A DNA stretch of 64,000 nucleotides from Pseudofulvimonas gallinarii. Its GTDB lineage: Bacteria; Pseudomonadota; Gammaproteobacteria; Xanthomonadales; UBA2363. The stretch's first letter is position 1; each line of letters starts with the position of its first letter. A model generated the notes under the pieces. It saw only the letters and a list, made by a program, of their open reading frames with translations, was not told the DNA's origin and did not search any database. Positions 1,040-50,983 of the stretch are shown here, in pieces. The stretch spans positions 62,001 to 126,000 of the forward strand of contig NZ_SMAF01000007.1 of NCBI RefSeq assembly GCF_004343305.1, in the 5' to 3' direction. Made by a program: the position numbers and the translations under genes.

Positions 1040-3853
1040 TTACGGCTCGAAACCGTTGGCGAAGATGGACTCCGACAGGGCGACACCGCCCTGGAAGAGC
1101 ATGGCATTTTCAGTGGCACGCAGGTCGCCCAGCTGGTTGTCGGTCAGGATGACGGTCCAGGTGTTGCCATCCCGCGTGAATGGCAGGTCGCGCCAGGCAT
1201 AGGTATGCGTCGCCTCGGGTGTGAGGGGCGCGAACACGCGGAAGCGCCAGCCGGCACCGAAGCCGGCTCCGTGGTAGTGCAGCCGCAGCCGTGCCTGCGT
1301 GCAGTTGCCCAGGTCCAGGCGCACCAGGCCCAGCGGGTAGTCGTGGCCGGTATCGACCGGGAAGGCGCTGGCCGGCAGGGCGTGGGCATTCTCCAGACGT
1401 GCGCAGGCACCCTGCAGCGGTTCCACTTCGATGGTGATGTAGCGGTCACCGCCGCGGCCGGCCCCATCGCCCGCGTCCAGGAGCGAGGCCACCTGGGCCT
1501 GGACGGTGTCGGGAATGCCATCACCGTTGCCGTCACCGCCTGACGGGGCGCCACTTTCGATGGCGCTGGGGACGCCGTCGGCATCCTCGTCCGGCACCTG
1601 GTCGATGCTGAAGACACCGTGGCGGGTGCCGGCATACAGGCGTGGCACGGCGCCGGAGAGGTCCAGTTCCAGGGCAGAGGCGGCACTGGGTGGCAGGCCG
1701 ATACTGTACGAGGTCCAGGTCTGGCCACCATCGGTGGTGCGATAGACACCGCCGGGATTGGTTTCCGAGCCGGTCGAGCCGGCATAGGCGATATCGGGAT
1801 CGGTGGGGTCGACGATCAGCGCCCGGATGTCCGACTGCGGGGCGATGCCGTTGTTGGCCTCGTACCAGCTGGCACCCGCGTCGTCGCTGCGGAAGATGAC
1901 TGAATCACCCAGGAGGTTGTGGGTGGCGGCGTACAGGCGTGACGGCAGGCTGGGCGCCAGCGCCAGCGCCAGCACGCTGCGCTGGGCGCTGTCGGGATCG
2001 GCCGGATTCATGCGCGGCAGGCCGACACTGCTGTGCAGCCAGTTGGCGCCGCCGTCGGTGCTCTTGAACACGCCGTTGATGACACCGCGCGAAACCAGCG
2101 GATTGGTGTAACCGGGTTCGTAACCGCTGGTGGATGTGCCCACGTACAGCGTCGTTGGCGTCACTGGATCGATCACCAGCGGCACCGCGATCACCGCGTA
2201 GCTTTGATGGGTGACGGTGTCATACAGGGGAATCGGCAGGCCGTTGTCGGACGCTGTCCAGTTGCCGCCGGCGTCGGTGCTCTTGTAGATGCGGGCGGCA
2301 TTCACCGTTGGCACGCCGGTGTTGTAATCGTAGGAAATGCTCCCGCTGCCACTCAGATACAGGGTCTGCAGCGGACCGGTGCCGGCCGGCGCACCGCCGC
2401 TGGAAGGATCGGCCACCACGGTCCGGGCGATGTTGAAATAGCTGCGCTTGTAGCCGGCACTGGTCTGGAACGGAATGCCGTTGTCGATGGTCGACCAGGT
2501 TGCGCCGCCGTCGCTGCTCTTGAACACGCCGGCATTGCCGTCGCGGACGGTGCCGGACATGGAAAACAGCGGTTGCCCGTAACCGGCCGCGTACAGCGTG
2601 GTGCTGAAGGGACTGCTGGTGGTGTTGGGGTCGACAAGGATGGTGCGCAGTCCGCTGGCTTCCAGAGACGGCGAGGCGGAGAACCAGCTGCCGCCGCGGT
2701 CGATGGAGCGGAACAGGCCATCGCTGGGCGTATCGAAGGCGTCGCCATAGCCGGCGAATACCCACAGCGGTTGCGTGGGATGCACCGCTAGGGCGCGGAT
2801 CGCCGCCTGGCGCAGGCCGGTGTTGCGCCGGCTCCAGCTGGTGCCGCCATCGTGGGTGACATAAAAGCCGGTGAAATCGGCCCCGGCATACAAGGTGTTG
2901 ACGTCATCGGGGCGGACGAACAGGGCATTGACGCCGTTGTCGTAGCTGCCACCGGCAACCGGGCGGATGCCCTGCCCGACCACGCTGTAGCTCATACCGC
3001 CGTCGTTGGTGCGCGCCAGGCCAACATTGGTCGCGATCCACCACACACTCGGGTCCGATGGATGCGCTTGGATGCGCCGGATGGCACCGACTTGCGGCAG
3101 ATCCACGGCGGCGAGCAGGCTGAAGCTGGCACCGCCGTCGACGCTGCGGAAAATCGAGCCCTGGGTGCCGACCAGGACCATGCCCGGGGTGCTCGTGAAG
3201 GCGAAGGCGCCGTTGATGTAGTAGCCGGAGCCGGGAAGTCCGGTTGCCGCCGTCCAGGTCGCGCCAGCATCGGTGCTGCGGAACAGCTCCTCCCCGTAGC
3301 TGCCCAGCAGCCGCCCGGGGACATGCGGGTCGGCGACGACGTGCAGGGGCATGCTGGTCAGGCCGGTGGCGGGGAGCTGCGTCCAGGTGTCGCCGTCGTC
3401 CAGACTCTGCCAGAAGCCGGCGCTGCCGCTCGCCCAGACGCGGCCGGGAGTGGTCGGATCGAACGCCAGTTCGGAGAAGCCGCCCGGTACCGGCAGGCCG
3501 CCGGCCAGTGCGGACCAGTTGCTGCCACCGTCGGTGCTGCGGAAGATCTGCCAGAAGTTGGTGACCAGCAGCAGGTCGCCGTCGTGCGGGCTCATGCGCA
3601 GCCGGTTCAGCACCGCCGCATACGGCGCCACATTCAGTGTCGTCCAGGTCAGGCCGGTATCGGTGCTCTTGTGGACAGCGCTCTGCGCGCCGAGGAACAC
3701 GGTCGCCGGCTGTGCCGGATCGACGGCGATCTCGAAAATGGTGCCGCCCTCCGGTCCGCTCGATGTCCACACGCCCGGTCCCGCTTGTGCCGGGACGGCG
3801 AGGACAAGGGCGAGCAGGGAGGGAACGGCGAGCTGCAGGAGATGACGGTACAT
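1040..3853 (-). CDS. Secreted Asp-box (BNR/sialidase-like) repeat protein with C-terminal IFANGFEP
   Basis: A 937-residue exported protein. The start at 3853 is chosen because it begins a clear signal peptide (MYRHLLQLAVPSLLAL, ending near VPAQAG) and has GAGG 8-11 bases upstream; the frame runs further upstream without such features. About thirteen repeats of the type F-x-S-x-D-x-G-x-x-W (for example FKSSDGGATW, YRTTDGGQTW) are Asp-box motifs, pointing to one or two beta-propellers as in VPS10/sortilin or photosystem assembly factor-like proteins. An Asp/Gly-rich calcium-binding-like stretch (DADGV, GDGNGDGIPD) follows, then a C-terminal beta domain resembling the choice-of-anchor U type. 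The last residues, IFANGFEP, match the ends of two other exported proteins in this window. No catalytic residues were recognised and the substrate is unknown. It stands alone, convergent with lpdA. Confidence 0.85.
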   Translation of the reverse strand: MYRHLLQLAVPSLLALVLAVPAQAGPGVWTSSGPEGGTIFEIAVDPAQPATVFLGAQSAVHKSTDTGLTWTTLNVAPYAAVLNRLRMSPHDGDLLLVTNFWQIFRSTDGGSNWSALAGGLPVPGGFSELAFDPTTPGRVWASGSAGFWQSLDDGDTWTQLPATGLTSMPLHVVADPHVPGRLLGSYGEELFRSTDAGATWTAATGLPGSGYYINGAFAFTSTPGMVLVGTQGSIFRSVDGGASFSLLAAVDLPQVGAIRRIQAHPSDPSVWWIATNVGLARTNDGGMSYSVVGQGIRPVAGGSYDNGVNALFVRPDDVNTLYAGADFTGFYVTHDGGTSWSRRNTGLRQAAIRALAVHPTQPLWVFAGYGDAFDTPSDGLFRSIDRGGSWFSASPSLEASGLRTILVDPNTTSSPFSTTLYAAGYGQPLFSMSGTVRDGNAGVFKSSDGGATWSTIDNGIPFQTSAGYKRSYFNIARTVVADPSSGGAPAGTGPLQTLYLSGSGSISYDYNTGVPTVNAARIYKSTDAGGNWTASDNGLPIPLYDTVTHQSYAVIAVPLVIDPVTPTTLYVGTSTSGYEPGYTNPLVSRGVINGVFKSTDGGANWLHSSVGLPRMNPADPDSAQRSVLALALAPSLPSRLYAATHNLLGDSVIFRSDDAGASWYEANNGIAPQSDIRALIVDPTDPDIAYAGSTGSETNPGGVYRTTDGGQTWTSYSIGLPPSAASALELDLSGAVPRLYAGTRHGVFSIDQVPDEDADGVPSAIESGAPSGGDGNGDGIPDTVQAQVASLLDAGDGAGRGGDRYITIEVEPLQGACARLENAHALPASAFPVDTGHDYPLGLVRLDLGNCTQARLRLHYHGAGFGAGWRFRVFAPLTPEATHTYAWRDLPFTRDGNTWTVILTDNQLGDLRATENAMLFQGGVALSESIFANGFEP

Positions 3854-11034: not shown

Positions 11035-11675
11035 AACGAAGCTGGAACACGCTGAGCCAGCAGTCCAACGGCGCCTGGTCCGCGCAGGATTTCGAACGCG
11101 CCGCCTATAGACTGGTCACCGAACAGGTGCTGTCCGCAGGTGACCGCGGCACGCGCCTGGCCTATCACCTGGTCGAAGAGCACTTCGAGGACTTCGTCGC
11201 CGCGCTGGCGCCCCTGGGCGTGCGCCTGGAACGCAATGCGCACTACCGCTACGTCGTTGCCTTGCCGACGCACGGCGAAGGCGCGCCGGTGTCGCTGGCG
11301 GAGACGCTGCTGCTGCTGGTGCTGCGCCAGCGCTACGACGTCGCCATGCGCGAAGGCCTGATCGAGGACGACGGCCTGGTTACAGTCGAGCTGCCAGACC
11401 TGCAGGAAGCCTACCCGCAACTGACGGGACGGCCGATGCCCGACGTCGGCCTGCTGCGCGAACTGGCGCGCACGCTGCGGCGCTGGGGCGTGTGCCGCCT
11501 GGTCGAGGTCGACGGCGACGATCCGCAGCCGTTCCACCTGCAGGTGCGTCCGGCCATCGTCGAAATCATCGGCGAACAGTGGCTGCAGCGACTCGACCAG
11601 CACTACCGCGGCGGCGACGAGGACGACGCGCCCGACACCGCGGCCTTCGCAGGGGATGACGATGCAAAGGCTTGA
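11031..11675 (+). CDS. jetB: Wadjet system kite-like subunit JetB (DUF4194)
   Basis: 214 residues from the ATG at 11031, which overlaps the jetA stop (ATGA). The sequence contains AAYRLVTEQVLSAGD, PVSLAETLLLLVLRQRYD and a winged-helix-like stretch, fitting DUF4194 proteins that act like MukE/kite subunits binding the JetA kleisin. The C-terminal dozen residues are strongly acidic. The stop lies inside the start region of jetC (20-base overlap), so expression is probably coupled through all four genes. Confidence 0.87.
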   Translation: MKRSWNTLSQQSNGAWSAQDFERAAYRLVTEQVLSAGDRGTRLAYHLVEEHFEDFVAALAPLGVRLERNAHYRYVVALPTHGEGAPVSLAETLLLLVLRQRYDVAMREGLIEDDGLVTVELPDLQEAYPQLTGRPMPDVGLLRELARTLRRWGVCRLVEVDGDDPQPFHLQVRPAIVEIIGEQWLQRLDQHYRGGDEDDAPDTAAFAGDDDAKA

Positions 11676-14600
11676 GCGCGTCCACCTGGTGCAGTTCTTC
11701 CTGTTCGAGGCGCAGACGCTCGAACTCGACCGCACCTCCGCCGTGATCGCGCCCAACGGCGCCGGCAAGAGCGCGCTGCTTGACGCTCTGCAGATCGTGT
11801 TGCTGGGCGGCGACCGCAGCCGCATCCGCTTCAACGCACAGGCCGGCGGCAGCGCGCGGGCGCGCAGCATCCGCGACTACTGCCTGGGCGTGTACCGCAG
11901 CGGCGACGACGGCCGCAAGCGTCGCACCGCGACGACGTACATCTCGCTGGTGTTCCGCGACGAGGACAGCGGCCTGCCGCTGACGGCCGGCATCGCGCTG
12001 GCCGCGTCGGCGGACGAACCCGAACACCGTGTGCATGGCCTGTACCTGTTGCCGGGCGTGGCGCTGGAGCTGGACGACCACCTCGAACAGGTCGACGGCC
12101 GCACGCTGCCGCTGGCCTGGGCGACGTTCCGCGAACAGGCATCGCGCCGCTGCAAGGCGGCCGGTGGAACGCTGGAGCTGCACAGCGTGGCCGAGCGTTT
12201 CGTGAAGGACCTGCTGTTCCGCCTGCGCGCCACGGCGACCGCGAATCCCGACGTCAACGCCTACCGCAAGGCCTTCCTCAACGCGCTGAACCTGCAGCGC
12301 GTCGATGATGTCGACCTGTTCGTGCGTGACCTGGTCGCCGAGAACCGGCCCACCGACATCGCACGCTTCCGCTCGCTGCTGGAAAGTTTCCGGCAGATCC
12401 GCGACCGCATCGAGCAGGTGCGCCAGCGCATCGAGGCGGCCGAAGGCGCCGAGAAGCAGTACGAACGCATCGCCAGCCAGGCGGTGCGCGCGGCGTCGTA
12501 CCGCGCCCTCGCCGCCGAATACGCGCGCGACCTTTACGGCGAACAGATCGAAACCGCCGAGGCCGATGTCGAGGCCGCGCGCGAAGCGCTGTCACGCACG
12601 CGCCGCGAACTGGCCGAAGCGCGCAGCGAACGCGAGCGCCTGCGCGACGAACTCGAGCGCGGCAATGCGCAGTTGGCCGGCCACGGCGGTTATGGCGAGC
12701 AGGCACGGTTCGAGGAAGTGGCCGCCCGCGATCGCGAGCGCCTGGCGCAGATCCGGGGCTTGCTGCTGCGCGAGATCGCGGCGATCGCGGATCGCCTGGG
12801 TTCGCTGCCGGCCGTCGACGGCGTCGATGCGGCCATGCTGGCCGAGGCACGTCGCCCCTGGGCGCAGTGGTATGCGGCGCTTGGAGGCGACGGCGGCGAG
12901 GAACATCTGCCGTGGTCACCGGAAGACTTCTTCGACGCGGCGCGCACCGCGCTGCAGGCGGCACGGCCGCTGGTCGAGCAGCTCGAGTCCTTCGGGCGCC
13001 GCCTTCACGCCGAACTGGAACAGTCGCGCGCACGTGCGCAGGCGGCGCGGTCGAACCACGGCCGGCTCGCCGCCGGGCAGGCGGAACTGGCGCCGGATGT
13101 CGTCCGCCTGATGAACTACCTGCGTGACGAAGGTATCGACGCGCGCCCGGTCTGCGATCTCGTGCGCGTGCGCGATCCCGCCTGGCAGCGCGCCATCGAG
13201 GCCTACCTGCGCAGCAATGTCGAAGCGCTGCTGATTCCCGTCGAGCAGGAGGAAAAGGCGACGCGGCTGTACCGCGGCCTGCGCGACGGCCGCGCCGTCT
13301 ATGGCGTCAAGCTGGCACTGTCGAGCCACGCCCGCGCCGGCCGGCGCGACGAGCCCGCGTCGGGCACGGTCGCCGCATTGCTCGAGGGTCTCAACGACGA
13401 TGCGCTGGCCTTCCTGCGCCGGCAACTCGGCGACCTGCGCTGCGTCGACGGTGATGCCGAACTGCTGCGCACGCGCCAGGGCCTGAGCGCCGACGGCGTG
13501 CTCGCCAAGGGCGGCAGCATCGAACGCCTGCGCCTGCCGGCCGTCGGCGAACTGAAGATCGGCGCCGCCGACAATCGCGACCGCCTGCGCGTGCTGCGCC
13601 AGGACATGGATCGTGCCGAGGCCGATGTCCGCCGCCTTGAACCGCTGGTGCGCGCACTGGACGGCCATCATCGCGGCCTGTCGCGGCTGGCGCAGGGCGA
13701 CGAGCTGGCGCAGGCGCTGCATGCGCGCGTGCTGGAACACCACGATGTCGCGCAGCGCCTGCGCAGCAGCCGTGACACGGCCGCCGCATCGGCGGATCCG
13801 GACCTGCTGCGGCTGGCGGAAAAGGTGCGCGAACTGCGCGGCGAACGTGACGCCGCCGAACAGCGCGTCGAGGCGCTGGTCGGTCGCGAGGCAGTGGCCG
13901 ACGGCCGCCTCGCCAGGCTGGTCGAGATGCTCGAAGCGCTGCGCGCGCAGGAAGAGCTGATCGCGCGCAAGGCGGTGCAGGCCTTCGCCGATCCCGACGT
14001 CGATCCGAATCGCGTCGAGCGCCAGCGCGAGGACATGGACGACCGCTTCGCGACGCTGGAAGAACGCCGCCAGCAGTGTGAAGCGCGTGCCGGTGAATCC
14101 GACCGGCGGCTGGCGCACATGCTGCCCGAAGCCTGGAGCGTGCTGTCTCAGTACGCGCGCGACCATGGCCTCGACCTGGAGCTGGAGACACACGACTGGC
14201 GCCGCGCGCGTACGCTGCTGCAGCGCGAACTGGCGCAGCTGCGCGATACCGACCTGGTGCGCTACCAGGCCGATGCCGACCGCGCCTACGACACCGCCGT
14301 CGAGACCTTCCGCGCCAGCGTGGCCGCCACGCTCAACGACAACTTCGTCCGCCTCAAGGGCCAGATCGCCACGCTCAACCGCACGCTGCGCGCCAGCCCG
14401 GCGTTCTCGAACAACGAGCGCTACCAGTTCCACTACGAAGTGGTGCCGGAATTCCGCGATCTCGAACGCTTCATCCGCCGTGCCGCCGACGTCGGCAGCG
14501 AGGACAACCTGTTCGGCAGTGCCGGCGAGGTGCCGGCCGCGTTCCGCGAATTGATCGAGGACAATATCGCAGCGCGTTCAACCACTTCGCCACTTGACGA

Positions 14601-15084
14601 CTACCGGCGCTTTTTCCGCTTCGAGGTGCAGATCCGCCAGGACGACGAGGTGATCGGCACGCTCAGCGAACGCATGCGCTCCGGTTCCGGTGGCGAGCAT
14701 CGCGCGCCACTCTATGTGATTGCCGGCGCCGCACTGGCGGCCGCCTACGGCAAGAGCGAGGCGCAACCCGGCGGCATGGGCCTGATCCTGCTCGACGAGT
14801 TCGGCGACAAGATCGACGCCCAGAACGCGCGCGCGACCACCAACTACCTGCGTTCGCTGGGCCTGCAGCTCCTGCTGGCGGCGCCGGACACCGCCCAGGG
14901 CACGCTCAGTGGCGTGCTCGACAGCTACATCGAGCTGTTCCGCGATGGCGACCTGCTTCAGGTCGAACGCATCGAGGTCAAGGAGGCGGCGCGAGAGCTG
15001 CTGCTGTCCGACCAGTTCGACCTGCATCCCGGACTGCTGGTCGAGGAAACCGCGCGCATCGAACGCGAGCTGGGCTTGCAATGA
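11656..15084 (+). CDS. jetC: Wadjet system SMC-like ATPase JetC
   Basis: 1142 residues. The P-loop APNGAGKSALLDALQ is at residues 32-46. A long charged coiled-coil follows (for example TRRELAEARSERERLRDELE), with a central non-coil region near 500-640 as hinge, then a second coil. The ABC signature SGSGGE is at 1009-1014 and Walker B LILLDEFGD at about 1043-1051, with Asp1047 and Glu1048. All ATPase motifs look intact. Established Wadjet work shows ATP-driven DNA loop extrusion by this subunit. A second ATG lies six bases into the gene (11662). The stop overlaps jetD by ATGA. Confidence 0.92.
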   Translation: MTMQRLERVHLVQFFLFEAQTLELDRTSAVIAPNGAGKSALLDALQIVLLGGDRSRIRFNAQAGGSARARSIRDYCLGVYRSGDDGRKRRTATTYISLVFRDEDSGLPLTAGIALAASADEPEHRVHGLYLLPGVALELDDHLEQVDGRTLPLAWATFREQASRRCKAAGGTLELHSVAERFVKDLLFRLRATATANPDVNAYRKAFLNALNLQRVDDVDLFVRDLVAENRPTDIARFRSLLESFRQIRDRIEQVRQRIEAAEGAEKQYERIASQAVRAASYRALAAEYARDLYGEQIETAEADVEAAREALSRTRRELAEARSERERLRDELERGNAQLAGHGGYGEQARFEEVAARDRERLAQIRGLLLREIAAIADRLGSLPAVDGVDAAMLAEARRPWAQWYAALGGDGGEEHLPWSPEDFFDAARTALQAARPLVEQLESFGRRLHAELEQSRARAQAARSNHGRLAAGQAELAPDVVRLMNYLRDEGIDARPVCDLVRVRDPAWQRAIEAYLRSNVEALLIPVEQEEKATRLYRGLRDGRAVYGVKLALSSHARAGRRDEPASGTVAALLEGLNDDALAFLRRQLGDLRCVDGDAELLRTRQGLSADGVLAKGGSIERLRLPAVGELKIGAADNRDRLRVLRQDMDRAEADVRRLEPLVRALDGHHRGLSRLAQGDELAQALHARVLEHHDVAQRLRSSRDTAAASADPDLLRLAEKVRELRGERDAAEQRVEALVGREAVADGRLARLVEMLEALRAQEELIARKAVQAFADPDVDPNRVERQREDMDDRFATLEERRQQCEARAGESDRRLAHMLPEAWSVLSQYARDHGLDLELETHDWRRARTLLQRELAQLRDTDLVRYQADADRAYDTAVETFRASVAATLNDNFVRLKGQIATLNRTLRASPAFSNNERYQFHYEVVPEFRDLERFIRRAADVGSEDNLFGSAGEVPAAFRELIEDNIAARSTTSPLDDYRRFFRFEVQIRQDDEVIGTLSERMRSGSGGEHRAPLYVIAGAALAAAYGKSEAQPGGMGLILLDEFGDKIDAQNARATTNYLRSLGLQLLLAAPDTAQGTLSGVLDSYIELFRDGDLLQVERIEVKEAARELLLSDQFDLHPGLLVEETARIERELGLQ

Positions 15085-16298
15085 GTGGGCCGCAGGCGCC
15101 GGAGGACTCACCGGCATTGCGCTTCCTTGGGCGGCTGCTGGCGCGCGTCGACTCGGCCGCAGTCCGTGACGGCAGCATCGTGGTCAGTGTTCCTATGTCG
15201 ACGGCCAGCGCGCCGGAATACCACGCAGCGCGCACCTGGACGGAGCGCGAGGAATTCCACGCGGTGATTGCACTGGCCGAGCGCGCCGGTGCGGTAACCG
15301 TGCGCAGCGAGCGTCACCGGGACGATCCCGGACTAGTGCGGGTGACCGTTGCCGATACGCAGGCGCTGGCTGCGTTTCTGGGCAGGAAGACGCTGCGCCA
15401 GCAGGTGGAAGCCGCCAGGACGACGCTCGCCGGTGCAGCGCGCCGGTTCCCCGTCATTGAAGCGGTGCTTTCACGGTGGGCGAAGGGAAAGACCGTGCGA
15501 GGCAGGCGCTCCGAGGCGGCGGTCGATCTTGCAGATGCTGCGCGGGTGGTTGATGCAGGACTTCGCGAAGGCGGGCCGGAACGCCTCCTGCGGCGCGAGA
15601 GCATCCGCCTGTTCGGCGACAGCAAACGTGTAGAGGCGTTGACGCCGTGGCTGGAAGTCCTGCTGACGGGCGAACTGGCTGCCACCGGCCTCGATGATGC
15701 CCAGATCTGGTCGGCATTGGGCTTGCGTAAACAACCGCAGCCGTTGCTCCTGGCAGGCGGGGCAAGACTGCAACTGGTTGACGGACTTCACGTCGACCTT
15801 GTTCGCCCCTACCTGGGCATCGCGCCCGAATCACTGTGTGCCATCGACACGGCGGCACGGTACCTGATCAGCGTCGAAAACCTTGCCAGCTTCCATGACC
15901 TGGCGCGGGGCGCCGAGGAGCGCAGCGTCGTCATCGCCTACACCGGCGGAATGCCCTCGCCTGTGTGGCGGGAGGCCTACCGGCGTCTGCTCGAGGGCCT
16001 GCCTGACGACGCCCGGGTGCTGCATTGGGGTGACATCGATGAGGGCGGCTTCCGCATAGCGGCCGTGCTTGCCCAGACAGCGACAACAGTCGGAAGGACA
16101 CTCGAGCCGTGGCTGATGTCGCCCGCGGATCTCCCGGAGACGGTGCGCGCGGGTGCTTCAGTACCTTCAACCGCCACCCGGAACGCCATGCAACATTGGG
16201 CGCGTCGCGCCGGATGGGAAGAGCTCGCGGCAACGTTGATCGAACAGTGTGTCGTATGCGAGCAGGAAGCCTTGCCGGCAATCTTTCCGGGAGAATGA
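15081..16298 (+). CDS. jetD: Wadjet system nuclease JetD (DUF3322 + DUF2220, Toprim-like)
   Basis: 405 residues with an N-terminal DUF3322-like region and a C-terminal DUF2220 Toprim-like fold. The likely metal-binding residues are visible: Glu266 in LISVENLASFHDL, YTGGMPS near 290, and Asp318/Asp320 in HWGDIDEGGFRIA. JetD is the topoVI-like subunit that cleaves the plasmid after loop extrusion. It overlaps jetC by ATGA and is the last gene of the operon. Base composition in the middle of the gene looks less GC-rich than its neighbours, which fits an acquired defence locus; this is a visual impression, not a calculation. Confidence 0.92.
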   Translation: MSGPQAPEDSPALRFLGRLLARVDSAAVRDGSIVVSVPMSTASAPEYHAARTWTEREEFHAVIALAERAGAVTVRSERHRDDPGLVRVTVADTQALAAFLGRKTLRQQVEAARTTLAGAARRFPVIEAVLSRWAKGKTVRGRRSEAAVDLADAARVVDAGLREGGPERLLRRESIRLFGDSKRVEALTPWLEVLLTGELAATGLDDAQIWSALGLRKQPQPLLLAGGARLQLVDGLHVDLVRPYLGIAPESLCAIDTAARYLISVENLASFHDLARGAEERSVVIAYTGGMPSPVWREAYRRLLEGLPDDARVLHWGDIDEGGFRIAAVLAQTATTVGRTLEPWLMSPADLPETVRAGASVPSTATRNAMQHWARRAGWEELAATLIEQCVVCEQEALPAIFPGE

Positions 16299-40291: not shown

Positions 40292-41707
40292 TTACTCGAA
40301 GCCGTCGGCGAAGAGGACGTCGCCGGCCACCGCCCGCAGCAGGATCCGCCGCGGCGACGAGGGATCGTCAGTGCTGACCAGCACCCGTGCCCGCTGCTCG
40401 CCGTCCTGTGCCGGCGTGACCTGCCAGTGCAAGGCACAGCTTTCGCCGGGTTGCAGGACGAACGGCGGGGCGGCGCAGGCGTCCGCGCCGGCGACGGCGG
40501 CGAACGGGGCCACCACCGCGCCGATGCCCTGCACCGCCAGCGGCAGCGGCTCGACGTTGCGCAGCACCAGCGTCGCCGTTGCCGGTTGGCCGACTTCAAC
40601 GCCGCCGAAGTCGAGCACCGGCGTTTCGACATGAAGGCGGGGCAAGGCGCCGCGACCGGTCAGCACCACGCCGGCTTCGTCGTCGCCCGCCGTATCGATG
40701 GCCGGCAGCACCCAGATCGCGCGATGGGCCTGGACCAGGGCCGGGGAAAAGCCGACGACGATGTCGCAGTCCCCGCCGACGGCCAGCGTTTCGCCCGAGC
40801 AGCCGTCATCGACAACGGCGAACGGCGCCGGCGGCGCCGGCAACGGGTCGATGGCCACAGGCAGGTCGCCGGTCTGCGCCAGCCGGAGGATCGCCTGCCC
40901 GTTGCCGCCCGCGGCGACCGCGCCGAAATGCAGGGCCGCCGTCGCCGGCCTGTATCCGCCCGCATGGCCGCCGAAACGCAGGTTGCCGATCATCTGCGTG
41001 ACGCCGGACAGGCTGCGCACCTCGACGCGCTGCACCGGCACGGGACTGATGAAGCCGGCGAACACGCCTTCCGAGGGCACCTTGCCGGACAGCATGAAGC
41101 TGCCGAGGACCTGGTTGTCGCGTCCAGTCACGGTGAAGGTCAGCGGCGAACCGGCCTGCCAGTCGAAGGCCTGCATGGCGACGGCGACCGGCCCGTCATC
41201 GAAATCGACGTAGGTGATGGTCGCCGGCGAGATCGCGCCGACGACGTTGGTCTGCAGGCCGCCGATGGGCGCGGCGAACGCCATCAGGCCGTAGCCATGG
41301 GCGCCGACATCGAGATTGCTGCGGATGCTGAAGCCGCGTTTGACCTGGCCCGGCTCGAAGCACACCGGCGCAAGGAATGCGGCGCCGGGCTGGCCCATTT
41401 CGCTGTTGACGGGCTCCCAGCAGGGCGAGGCCGTACCCATGCCGCGTGAGGAGAAATCCTCGTGCGTCAGCGCTATGTGCGCGGTCGCCGCCTGGAACTG
41501 CGCATAGGTCGCGAACATCTGCAGCACGTTGCCGCCCGTTGGCGTCGCTGGCGGCTGTGCGGTGTGCAGCGGCGATGCCGCCGCCCACTGCTGCCACGGA
41601 CCGCCGGCCGGCTGGGCGAACGCGCCGGCACCCCCGAGAACGAGCACAGCGGCTGCCTGCGCCAGCTTGCGGGCCAGCGCCATGAATCCCATTGTCCTGC
41701 CGCTCAT
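40292..41707 (-). CDS. Secreted choice-of-anchor/ASH-domain protein ending LFADGFE
   Basis: 471 residues with a signal peptide (KLAQAAAVLVLGGAGAFAQ). After it comes a beta-rich domain shared with the two upstream genes: ALTHEDFSS, PVCFEPGQVKRGFSI, YVDFDDGPVAVAMQAFDW and EGVFAGFISPVPVQRVEV, ending in GNLRFGG. Two immunoglobulin-like ASH/choice-of-anchor D domains follow (LHFGAVAAGG with CSGETLAVGGDCDIVVGFSP; LDFGGVEVGQPATATLVLRN with LQPGESCALHW). The protein ends in GDVLFADGFE, the motif found on two other exported proteins here. It overlaps the preceding gene by ATGA. No function known. Confidence 0.85.
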   Translation of the reverse strand: MSGRTMGFMALARKLAQAAAVLVLGGAGAFAQPAGGPWQQWAAASPLHTAQPPATPTGGNVLQMFATYAQFQAATAHIALTHEDFSSRGMGTASPCWEPVNSEMGQPGAAFLAPVCFEPGQVKRGFSIRSNLDVGAHGYGLMAFAAPIGGLQTNVVGAISPATITYVDFDDGPVAVAMQAFDWQAGSPLTFTVTGRDNQVLGSFMLSGKVPSEGVFAGFISPVPVQRVEVRSLSGVTQMIGNLRFGGHAGGYRPATAALHFGAVAAGGNGQAILRLAQTGDLPVAIDPLPAPPAPFAVVDDGCSGETLAVGGDCDIVVGFSPALVQAHRAIWVLPAIDTAGDDEAGVVLTGRGALPRLHVETPVLDFGGVEVGQPATATLVLRNVEPLPLAVQGIGAVVAPFAAVAGADACAAPPFVLQPGESCALHWQVTPAQDGEQRARVLVSTDDPSSPRRILLRAVAGDVLFADGFE

Positions 41708-42702
41708 GGCGTCGCCTCCTCAACACTGCCGATGCCGTGGATGGAAAGAACCAGCGGTGCCGGGCTGAATTCGCCGGACACCTGCAGGCGTCCGAAGAAC
41801 GTGTCGGCCCAGGCGGGTGCGAACGCGATGCGGATCGTGCAGGTGCCGCGTGCCGGCAGCGGTGCACCGCTGCAGCCATCGTCGGCCAGCGCATAGCCCT
41901 CGCCGTGCACGACGGCCGCGTCGAGCTGCCATGGCCGGTCGCCCGGATTCACGATTTCCACGGCCTGTTCGCCCGGTTGCCCGATCGCCTGTGCGCCGAA
42001 GCGCAGCCTGTCAGTCGAAAACCGGGGTGCCTGGGCCATGCCCCCGAACAGCAGGTTGTCGATCTGCGCGCCCGCACCCAGCTCGCGCGTGCCGAACTCG
42101 ACCGCCGCGATCGGCACCTCTGAACTGAAACCGGCAAACGCCGGCTGGTTGAAGGCGGGCGGCATGACGACGAAGCTGCCCAGGCTGTTGTTGGCTTCAT
42201 CGAAGGCTTCGACGGTGACCGGTGCCGCGCTGCCGTTGGCGCTGCCGTTGGCCAGCCCGAAGCCGAACACATCCGCGGCAACGACCGTTGGCCCGTGCTC
42301 GAACTCGACGCGGGTGTAGTTCAGCGATGAAGGCGAGAGGCGGTAGGGCCAGGCGCCGATCGTCAGCGACGGGAACTGGATGATGTCCCTGCCCATGGAG
42401 AGCACGCCATGGCCATGCGTCGAGTGGATCGAAAAGCCGTCGGCAAGATCGCCGGGCGCGAAGCAGGCGTCATCGGACCGGCTGCTCACCGGTTCGATGC
42501 AGGCGGCGAATTCCATCGGATCGAGGAAGCGCGCCATGCTGCGCTCGAAGTCCTCGCTGACGAAGGTCATCGAGCCCTGCGCGGCCATCCGCCCGACGTC
42601 GGCGCGCTGCAGCGGGGTGATGCCTGCGGCCAGGACGAGGGCAGGCGAGGCGACGAACGCGGCCAGCATGGCGGTCCGAAGTACGTGGTCCGTGCGGCTC
42701 AT
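41704..42702 (-). CDS. Secreted protein related to its operon neighbours (one ASH domain)
   Basis: 332 residues with a signal peptide (LRTAMLAAFVASPALVLAAG). It has the same N-terminal domain as the genes on either side: TFVSEDFERS, DACFAPGDLADGFSI, RVEFEHGPTVVAADVFGF, NQPAFAGFSSEVPIAAVEF and DNLLFGG. A single ASH-like domain follows (LRFGAQAIGQPGEQAVEIVN with CSGAPLPARGTCTIRIAFAP). It lacks the LFADGFE-type end and any membrane anchor. ATGA overlaps join it to both neighbours. Confidence 0.8.
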   Translation of the reverse strand: MSRTDHVLRTAMLAAFVASPALVLAAGITPLQRADVGRMAAQGSMTFVSEDFERSMARFLDPMEFAACIEPVSSRSDDACFAPGDLADGFSIHSTHGHGVLSMGRDIIQFPSLTIGAWPYRLSPSSLNYTRVEFEHGPTVVAADVFGFGLANGSANGSAAPVTVEAFDEANNSLGSFVVMPPAFNQPAFAGFSSEVPIAAVEFGTRELGAGAQIDNLLFGGMAQAPRFSTDRLRFGAQAIGQPGEQAVEIVNPGDRPWQLDAAVVHGEGYALADDGCSGAPLPARGTCTIRIAFAPAWADTFFGRLQVSGEFSPAPLVLSIHGIGSVEEATP

Positions 42703-44096
42703 GGGGCACCTCCCTGGGTGGCGCGACCCGCCAGCGTGATGCCGTCGCCCTGGCCGTCGGCGTGGAACAGCGCCAGGTCGGCGTCGAATTCACCGGCAAC
42801 CAGCGGATTGAAGGCGATGTCCAGCGTGCAGGCTTCGCCAGGCGCCAGGTCAATGCCCGCGGACGGACAACTGCCGCCGGTGCGCACGAACGGCGCCGGC
42901 ACCGCGACAGACAAGCCGGTCTGTATGGCGACGGCGGTCGCGTTGCGGACGACGACCGTCTGCGTCGCCGAGGTGGCGCCGCTGGAAACGGCACCGAAGT
43001 CGAGATGGCCGGGTGCGGTCACCAGGCGCGACGGCAACACCTGCGCCGCCAGTTCCACCGACACGCCCGGTGCCGGTTGCCAGTGGTCGACATGCACGCC
43101 GCGGGCATCGCTGTCCAGCATCACCAGCACGTCGCAGCTGTCACCGGCGGCCAGCGTGCCGCCGCTGCAATCGTCGTCGAGCAGGGCGAACGGGGCCGGC
43201 GGCAGCTGAAGCGCCACCGGCAACGGCAGATGGCCGGCATTGCTGAAACGGGCGACCGCATGCGCGGCGCCGCCCTGCGGGACGGCGCCGAGATCGACGC
43301 GGTCCTGCGCCGCGGCGAGACGTCCAGCGCCGCCACCGAAGAGCAGGCGGCCGATCATCTCGCCGCTGCCATCATTGATCGCGTTGACCTCGACGCGGCG
43401 CACCGGGACGTCGCTGATGAAGCCCGCGAAGGCGCCGATGTTCAGCGCCGCCGGTTGCACAGCGAAGGCGCCGATCAGCGTGTCGTCTTCGGCGTAGGCC
43501 TCGATGCGGACCTCCAGGCCCTGCGTCGCGTCATACACGTCCATGCCGACGACGGTGGGATGCGGGTCGAAGTCGATGCGCGTCGGATTGCGCGGCAGGT
43601 CGAGCAGGTTGTTGCCGACGACTTCCGTCGGCATGTCGAACAGGTCGCGACCAAGCACGACGACATCGACGTCAAGGGCGTTGGCGTCGAAGATGCTGCC
43701 GCGGCTGCCGCGGATGCCGAAACCCGGCGCCAGCGTGCCAGGCCGGAAACAGGGATCGTTGGAGCGGTGGCCGAGCGCCTGGAAGCAGACGCGGACGCCT
43801 GTGGACGGTACGAAGCCGCCGGAGAAGTCCTCCTCGGTCAGCGCGAGGCCGGCGGCCGCGTCGAGCAGGGCCTGGCGATCGGCGAAGAGCTGCAGGCCGC
43901 CGCGGCCGGCCTCACTTCCGGCGGGCGCGCCGGTGGTGGCGCCGACCGGCCAGTGGTGTCCGCCCTGGTCTGTGGCGGTGGCGGCCGGCGCCAGCGCGGC
44001 GAGGATGGCGGCGAGTGGCCAACCGCATCGGGTGGCACGCCGGTTGGGCGGACGGGATCGACGCCCCTCCGCGTCGATCGGTTTTCCGGTTTTCAT
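42699..44096 (-). CDS. Secreted protein, first of three related genes (two ASH domains)
   Basis: 465 residues from ATG 44096, which has GGGAGAG at good spacing; an earlier in-frame ATG lacks this. A signal-like helix is CGWPLAAILAALAPAATA. The shared domain shows ALTEEDFSGG, DPCFRPGTLAPGFGI, RIDFDPHPTVVGMDVYDA, NIGAFAGFISDVPVRRVEV and GRLLFGG. Two ASH-like modules follow (VDLGAVPQGG with CSGGTLAAGDSCDVLVMLD; LDFGAVSSG with LAPGEACTLDIAFNP). The first gene of the operon, 190 bases downstream of the regulator's stop, with an inverted repeat between. The stop overlaps the next gene by ATGA. Confidence 0.82.
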   Translation of the reverse strand: MKTGKPIDAEGRRSRPPNRRATRCGWPLAAILAALAPAATATDQGGHHWPVGATTGAPAGSEAGRGGLQLFADRQALLDAAAGLALTEEDFSGGFVPSTGVRVCFQALGHRSNDPCFRPGTLAPGFGIRGSRGSIFDANALDVDVVVLGRDLFDMPTEVVGNNLLDLPRNPTRIDFDPHPTVVGMDVYDATQGLEVRIEAYAEDDTLIGAFAVQPAALNIGAFAGFISDVPVRRVEVNAINDGSGEMIGRLLFGGGAGRLAAAQDRVDLGAVPQGGAAHAVARFSNAGHLPLPVALQLPPAPFALLDDDCSGGTLAAGDSCDVLVMLDSDARGVHVDHWQPAPGVSVELAAQVLPSRLVTAPGHLDFGAVSSGATSATQTVVVRNATAVAIQTGLSVAVPAPFVRTGGSCPSAGIDLAPGEACTLDIAFNPLVAGEFDADLALFHADGQGDGITLAGRATQGGAP

Positions 44097-44256
44097 GTCG
44101 AGACTCTCCCTGGGTGAGACGGCTTGCGCCCGGTCGGCGGCAGCGTCCGACGCGTCCATGCGAGTCGGCCCTGCAACCAGTCGGGGACACGCACCGGCGG
44201 GTGCGGTCGTCAGGGAGTGTCGGCGCCGTGCCGGATGGGAACAACGGCAATCCGGA

Positions 44257-50393: not shown

Positions 50394-50983
50394 ATGCGAG
50401 CGACGACCGTTGTTGGCTGGACCGCCGCGGTTCTTGCCGTCAGGGCTGTCGCCTGGACTGGCGAAGTGACCGTCCCGCCCGACGCGTTGGCCTCGGCGGC
50501 GCAAGTCTGATCGGTGCCCAACCTCCAGATACCCGAGAACACGCCCGCAGGAATCACCTCCCAACTGGCGGTGCCCGGTTCGGGCATGGCCACCAACCTG
50601 CGTGTCCGTCTGGGCATCTCCCACACTTGGGTCGGTGACCTGATCGTGCGTCTGACGCATGCAGCCAGCGGCGTGACGATCACGCTCATGGATCAGCCAG
50701 GCGTGCCGCCCGGAACGTTCGGTTGCAGTGGTAAGCATGTGTTCGTGGTCGCCGACGACAGCGCGGTGGGAACGCTGGAGAGTGCCTGCGTGAGCGGAAT
50801 CCGGCCTATCAGTTCGAAGGGAGCTACAAGCCGAACCAGCCCCTGGCCGTTTTCGGGGCCCTGCCGCTCGCCGGAGTCTGGCAGCTCACCGTCAGCGACA
50901 ATTCTGCTGGCGACACGGGGACGCTGGTCTACTGGTGCATCGTCCACGAGGACCAGATTTTCCGCAACGGATTCCAGCCCTAG
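50394..50983 (+). pseudogene. Secreted P-domain (proprotein convertase) protein, inactivated
   Basis: ATG 50394 follows an AGGTGA site and opens a signal-like stretch (MRATTVVGWTAAVLAVRAVA). An in-frame TGA interrupts at 50508-50510. The same frame then resumes as a P/Homo B domain: VPNLQIPENTPAGITSQLAV and ISHTWVGDLIVRLTHAASG. Near 50795-50803 the frame shifts; frame +2 continues with AYQFEGSYKPNQPLAVFGAL, GVWQLTVSDNSAGDTGTLVY and ends IFRNGFQP at a TAG (50981-50983). Two lesions make it a pseudogene. It is short, lacking a peptidase domain. It lies between the icd remnant and intact icd. Confidence 0.8.

Follow-up and report, generated by a model that had tools for sequence, protein, structure and literature searches.

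A short linear tag on unrelated, mostly signal-peptide-like proteins of one gammaproteobacterial order and its co-occurrence with one kind of type II secretion system

Many unrelated and mostly signal-peptide-like proteins of one gammaproteobacterial order carry a short tag, which is real and co-distributed with one kind of type II secretion system (T2SS), here called type A'. That it is a sorting-type tag can be held with very high confidence. Confidence in the link to type A' is also high, but this link is correlative and inflated by shared ancestry, and no proteome-wide ranking of partners stands behind it. As a reading which appears somewhat more probable than its alternatives together, it is inferred from sequence comparison that D-x-[IL]-F-x-[DN]-G-F-[EQ] may be a linear sorting signal for export via the type A' T2SS. 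Against this reading it must be said that all of the evidence is comparative, without any experiment.

The window, a stretch of 64,000 nucleotides from Pseudofulvimonas gallinarii, contains three copies of the motif, each directly before a stop codon, at the three ends (1040, 40292 and 50983) where an earlier note on this DNA had placed them. On the minus strand, the Asp-box protein at 1040..3853 (937-977 amino acids) consists of a signal peptide, a Sortilin/Asp-box propeller and the C-terminal tag IFANGFE followed by P (1043..1066, IFANGFE 1046-1066, stop codon 1040-1042; 63046-63066 of contig C7 in the genome of this organism, G000). Its match to the F510_1955 glycosylhydrolase is weak and below the cut-off. 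The choice-of-anchor D (ASH) protein at 40292..41683 on the same strand (NF012200, 2.4e-19) has a signal peptide and ends in LFADGFE (40295..40315, stop codon 40292-40294; C7 102295-102314). It is the last of three choice-of-anchor D-like (ASH) proteins arranged in tandem (40292-44159, minus strand) and the only tagged one; the two paralogues upstream of it (41704..44159, minus strand) end in ...VEEATP and ...TQGGAP, and for the one at 41704 the choice-of-anchor D match is below the cut-off. The third copy, IFRNGFQ followed by P on the plus strand (50957..50980, IFRNGFQ 50957-50977, stop codon 50981-50983; C7 112958-112977), terminates a frame-shifted P-domain-like remnant (50502..50983, plus strand), which is split over two frames, the last of which retains the tag; the fragment has no Pfam match. 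Elsewhere in the window an SbcC-like ATPase followed by a protein with a JetD C-terminal domain (11656-16298, plus strand) resembles a Wadjet (JetABCD) anti-plasmid defence operon.

The whole genome of this organism (3.45 Mb, 57 contigs) was searched with a degenerate DNA pattern for [ILVMF]F-x-x-GF-[EQ] and with the reversed pattern as a control, which gave 84 matches and 0 matches, respectively. In 65 of the 83 distinct motif-bearing open reading frames (ORFs) the motif is located 0-11 residues before the stop codon. About six of the other 18 resemble chance frames without N or D at position 4; the remaining 12 are exported and have the motif at other positions. The 65 C-terminal tags show the composition D(56/65)-x-[IL](64)-F(65)-A(40)-[DN](58)-G(65)-F(65)-[EQ](65), in which F, G, F and E/Q were fixed by the search pattern but the Asp at -2 and the preferences for A and D/N were not. 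The core could be refined to D-x-[IL]-F-x-[DN/H/S]-[G/R/S]-F-[EQD], and an extended form, IFTDGFESGDTSAWTTTVP, is known too. In the loci of relatives, 106 motif matches were found in the last 20 residues of 832 ORFs, compared with 0.01 on average when the motif was permuted; this enrichment is inflated because the motif itself fetched most of those loci, whereas the genome count of 84 versus 0 is unbiased. A signal-peptide-like start, assigned by a crude and permissive heuristic, is present in 41 of 49 complete tagged ORFs versus 80 of 173 untagged neighbours. Of the checks which the earlier note had proposed, those for enrichment at C-termini and for enrichment on signal-peptide proteins came out positive.

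By BLAST the 65 tagged proteins form 36 mutually unrelated families, the largest with 16 members, and conservation is confined to the last ~9 residues. Nothing is conserved upstream of the Asp at -2, by which a common terminal domain is ruled out; the observation of the earlier note, a shared end on otherwise unrelated proteins, is confirmed. A repeat at the DNA level is ruled out as well, as there are 61 distinct 21-mers among the 65 tags and synonymous codons vary freely. Within 60 residues of the C-terminus none of 63 tagged proteins has a TM-like 18-mer, in line with the supposed absence of a membrane helix, and K/R account for 6 of the 123 residues after the tag in the same proteins. In an AlphaFold model of one tagged beta-helix protein the tail has a pLDDT <50, a low confidence consistent with a flexible tail; the alignment was shallow, with 14 rows, and prediction was likewise poor for the hundred residues before the tail.

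The suggestion of a C-terminal tag stands for most copies, but the motif is not restricted to this position. Four proteins of G000 have it right behind the signal peptide; in the sulfatase L093 it takes the form ...AAAAGDPIFANGFE-QRPNILLVILDD, and L107 shows two copies behind the signal peptide. In several proteases of the same genome the tag precedes an added domain of 128-170 residues. N-terminal tags exist also in relatives (L172, L174 and L140), and one protein of a relative has a tandem of NSFE and then NGFE at its C-terminus (L289:2354-3337, minus strand). Such N-terminal, internal and tandem tags speak against a signal whose function requires cleavage from a free C-terminus; they favour a short linear motif for binding. 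Two matches each, 27-39 bases apart, were also seen at G077:C1:1302962-1303008 and G007:C124:5203-5261. The proteins L058, L081 and L085 of G000 have in common a domain of ~165 residues directly after the internal tag, which starts near DPDIVDSG.VN and ends in ...YVYNSAGNPITIP, and for which no Pfam match was seen.

Choice-of-anchor Q proteins make up 14 of 61 tagged proteins; others belong to families that possess known sorting signals elsewhere (choice-of-anchor D, rhombotarget-A-like or MYXO-CTERM-anchored). A family with tagged and untagged members is DUF1501. In the tag-rich genomes G000, G013, G030, G109 and G005 the domain of its copies is followed immediately by the tag or a closely similar sequence (IFANGFQ, IFANGFD, IFRSGFEPA and LFQNGFESPA were seen), and the homologues of eight tag-negative genomes (families f2 and f12) end at the domain end. 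The closest tag-negative homologue, in G031, is also untagged, with an uncertain frame end. Both DUF1501 copies of G090, a genome with type A', are untagged. Together with the two untagged ASH paralogues among the three in the window, this indicates that the tag marks some members of a family, as expected of a routing label. Untagged copies of otherwise tagged families in genomes with type A' also weigh against the export reading.

Among the known sorting signals, GlyGly-CTERM with its rhombosortase is comparable in being a short C-terminal signal which various unrelated exported proteins share in proteobacterial genomes with a T2SS, and in its many-to-one relation. It differs in its transmembrane helix with a basic end and in its need for rhombosortase. 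The 63 tails examined lack the helix followed by basic residues, none of the searched tag-rich genomes has a true rhombosortase, and for G000 the match to the rhombosortase model TIGR03902 is below the cut-off. Furthermore, genomes with GlyGly-CTERM and rhombosortase also have a T2SS, but no T2SS subclass has been linked to them (PMC3237569), in contrast to the one tied to the tag. PEP-CTERM with exosortase (PMC1569441) and MYXO-CTERM with myxosortase are likewise patchy, C-terminal and present in many copies per genome, and MYXO-CTERM even has carrier families in common with the tag (MXAN_5453 and myxosortase-dependent M36). These signals, like the LPXTG type, are tripartite, with a motif, a transmembrane helix and basic residues, whereas the tag has ~8 residues, no helix and copies off the C-terminus. 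No NCBIfam model matched seven tag tails even at E 10. The known CTERM families are ruled out by these two findings, and the earlier view that no named family exists for the motif is borne out within this search.

The C-terminal domains (type A/B sorting domains) of the type IX secretion system (T9SS) are also signals of signal-peptide proteins without a transmembrane helix. Proteins with these domains and tagged proteins have choice-of-anchor carriers in common. The T9SS domains are folded, comprise ~70-100 residues and belong to Bacteroidota; the tag differs in sequence and length, with ~9 conserved residues and the poorly predicted tail in the one shallow-alignment model. According to the literature, T2SS substrates show no evident linear sequence in common, and their signals are supposed to be structural (PMC7949064). 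The nearest resemblance there is loop 3 of PelI (PMC7949064), a short exposed peptide of nine residues steering recruitment by GspC/GspD, but determinants of this kind are protein-specific loops. A paper describing the D-x-[IL]-F-x-[DN]-GF-E motif was not found in the open-access literature; most subscription journals were outside the scope of this search.

The tag is restricted to one order and patchy inside it. In 121 genomes of the order the tag counts are bimodal, with 15-100 per genome in many families and 0-3 in others, and the reversed controls are near zero. In low-count genomes many of the single matches lie by chance in unrelated frames; some represent true tags. Outside the order, 226 gammaproteobacterial genomes representing more than 160 families showed nothing above background (0-3, like the controls). 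Named carriers among the matches listed are Dokdonella, Tahibacter, Rudaea, Pseudolysobacter, several Marinicella and many metagenome-assembled genomes of Lysobacterales.

Two kinds of T2SS can be distinguished in the order with the GspG profile TIGR01710, type A at E 1e-44 to 1e-57 and type B at 1e-25 to 1e-38, and it is type A that follows the tags. The tag-associated form, type A', is a T2SS of canonical type; its gspGHIJKLMN cluster has rsmE, bioA, cysQ and nudE as neighbours (assigned by eye), and gspD lies elsewhere. Tag-negative genomes of family f2 which also score as type A have a different locus with gspD, gspE and gspF inside the cluster, which we take to be Xcs-like. Since tag-negative genomes carry type B or Xcs-like systems, the T2SS in general is ruled out as the partner; only the A' locus tracks the tag. 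G000 possesses both type A' and type B, with two copies each of GspG, GspK and GspD (C8:66503 and, for type B, C3:170164, are the GspD copies); gspC, gspE and gspF were outside the search. Two properties of T2SS substrates and their hosts, a Sec or Tat signal peptide (by the heuristic above) and an encoded T2SS, are thus met in this organism. A second GspD is found in tag-rich genomes including G000, but multiple secretin matches with the GspD profile also occur in several tag-negative genomes.

A GspK model built from A' loci (alignment A2) separates A' cleanly from other T2SS; four genomes of family f9, in which a split GspK match lies beside a GspG of type A, were assigned to A'. If tag-rich is defined as at least 8 tags per genome, 64 of the 121 genomes have both tags and type A' GspK, 49 neither, 5 only tags and 3 only A' (Fisher p 3e-24, without correction for kinship). 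Tags without A' occur in G032, G058, G072 and G075, which are incomplete or fragmented, and in G062 of family f7 (97% complete, 17 tags), the chief exception to the co-occurrence. Type A' without tags occurs in G063, G081 and G088, the last of only 1.8 Mb, so that A' is not sufficient for tags. Within family f12, A' was found in 3 of 3 tagged and 0 of 15 untagged genomes (p 0.0012), and the sole tagged genome among the 19 of family f2 is also the sole A' carrier (1/1 versus 0/18). The co-distribution is partly a matter of inheritance; by our own reading, made without a species tree, only about four or five independent co-losses support the link.

The co-occurring sorting gene which the earlier note had recommended to look for exists only in the sense of this machinery, as no dedicated sortase was identified. 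A dedicated sorting gene beside the tagged genes was rejected, since no untagged neighbour recurs in 155 loci of relatives or around single-tag genomes. A true rhombosortase is present in 8 of the 121 genomes, all of them tag-poor (p 0.0008), and is ruled out as a partner by this anti-correlation. A separate, unidentified sorting protein, such as a periplasmic chaperone, peptidase or ligase, could still read the tag in the manner of exosortase or PorU and be merely co-inherited with A'. The imperfect partnership, with three A' genomes untagged and one near-complete tagged genome without A', would suit such a protein. The missing recurrent neighbour speaks against it, and a cleaving enzyme fits poorly with tags at the mature N-terminus or before a domain of 130-170 amino acids; this explanation is considered distinctly unlikely.

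In another possible arrangement, export by A' would depend on ordinary structural determinants, and the tag would afterwards bind a receptor in the outer membrane or matrix and keep the protein on the cell. Many tagged proteins are adhesin-like or of choice-of-anchor families, and the confinement of rhombosortase to tag-poor genomes looks as if the two were alternatives. The strain Wenzhouxiangella AB-CW3 is presumably a member of the tag-bearing bacterial group. It has a T2SS, its proteolytic activity is cell-bound with none in the supernatant, and outer-membrane-anchored proteases, possibly exported by the T2SS, were assumed by the authors (PMC7691419); the tag content of this strain is undetermined. 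Rhombosortase itself renders T2SS substrates surface-associated in Vibrio (PMC13393428). On the other hand, no receptor family was found, and a receptor would need to have been lost repeatedly together with type A'. The N-terminal and internal tags fit either surface retention or export via A'. Such a handle for retention is a serious possibility, though an improbable one on present evidence.

A lineage-wide change of one residue was also seen. Nine genomes of genus g9 in family f9 (G010, G028, G036, G043, G057, G083, G093, G098 and G103) have 11-81 tags each with R or S replacing G and 0-2 of the DGFE form, and the D-R-F-E form extends across unrelated proteins. In some genera of families f3, f4 and f8, S occurs as an additional form. 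A change of one tag residue over many unrelated proteins at once is expected under one common receptor, and the simplest reading of the replacement of DGFE by DRFE is that the tag co-evolved with such a receptor; a separate sorting protein would explain it equally, as would any single receptor. Residues of the A' locus that track the switch from G to R were sought in GspG-N only (not in GspC, GspD, GspE or GspF) and gave scattered candidates, none convincing.

The motif might also have no receptor and be a structural cap or linker, convergent or spread by recombination, without a role in sorting. The first strand of jelly-roll/CBM-like domains reads N-G-D-F-E-x-G, and the extended form IFTDGFESGDTSAWTTTVP may resemble it. 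Against this stand the near-invariance of F, G and F, the strict on/off distribution over genomes tied to one secretion system together with the absence from the rest of the class, the lineage-wide switching of residues and the position of the tag appended to otherwise complete domains. These properties are hard to obtain without a common recogniser, and such a cap can be given hardly any credence.

Under the preferred reading, export via type A', a tagged protein would cross the inner membrane by its signal peptide (Sec/Tat) and then fold. A component of the A' T2SS or a linked factor might bind the flexible tail of the protein in the form of an extended strand or turn, and the [DN]-G turn between hydrophobic residues may fold into a small hairpin or contribute an additional strand. 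Binding would select the folded protein, which would leave the periplasm through the A' T2SS to the outside or to the cell surface. The proposal that the motif is recognised as a tag in secretion, processing or surface attachment receives support from the C-terminal and signal-peptide enrichment and from the co-occurrence with A'. Direct reading of the tag by the T2SS is an inference, with the odds about evenly balanced. The more specific idea that one T2SS clade directly recognises D-x-[IL]-F-x-[DN]-[G/R/S]-F-E as a portable export signal (C-terminal, post-signal-peptide or interdomain), which has diverged together with its receptor across genera, is tentative and leans slightly to the doubtful side.

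It has long been an open question how the T2SS distinguishes its substrates from the other proteins of the periplasm. The tag looks like a previously unrecognised address label for export in Lysobacterales-type bacteria, e.g. Dokdonella, Tahibacter, Rudaea and Marinicella. If it is indeed portable and tied to a single T2SS clade, the substrates of that clade would be predictable from sequence, the receptor could be found by binding or suppressor experiments, and a handle for the export of cargo would be available. Even if it proves to be a handle for surface retention, it would represent a new class of bacterial sorting signal, carried by tens of proteins per genome.
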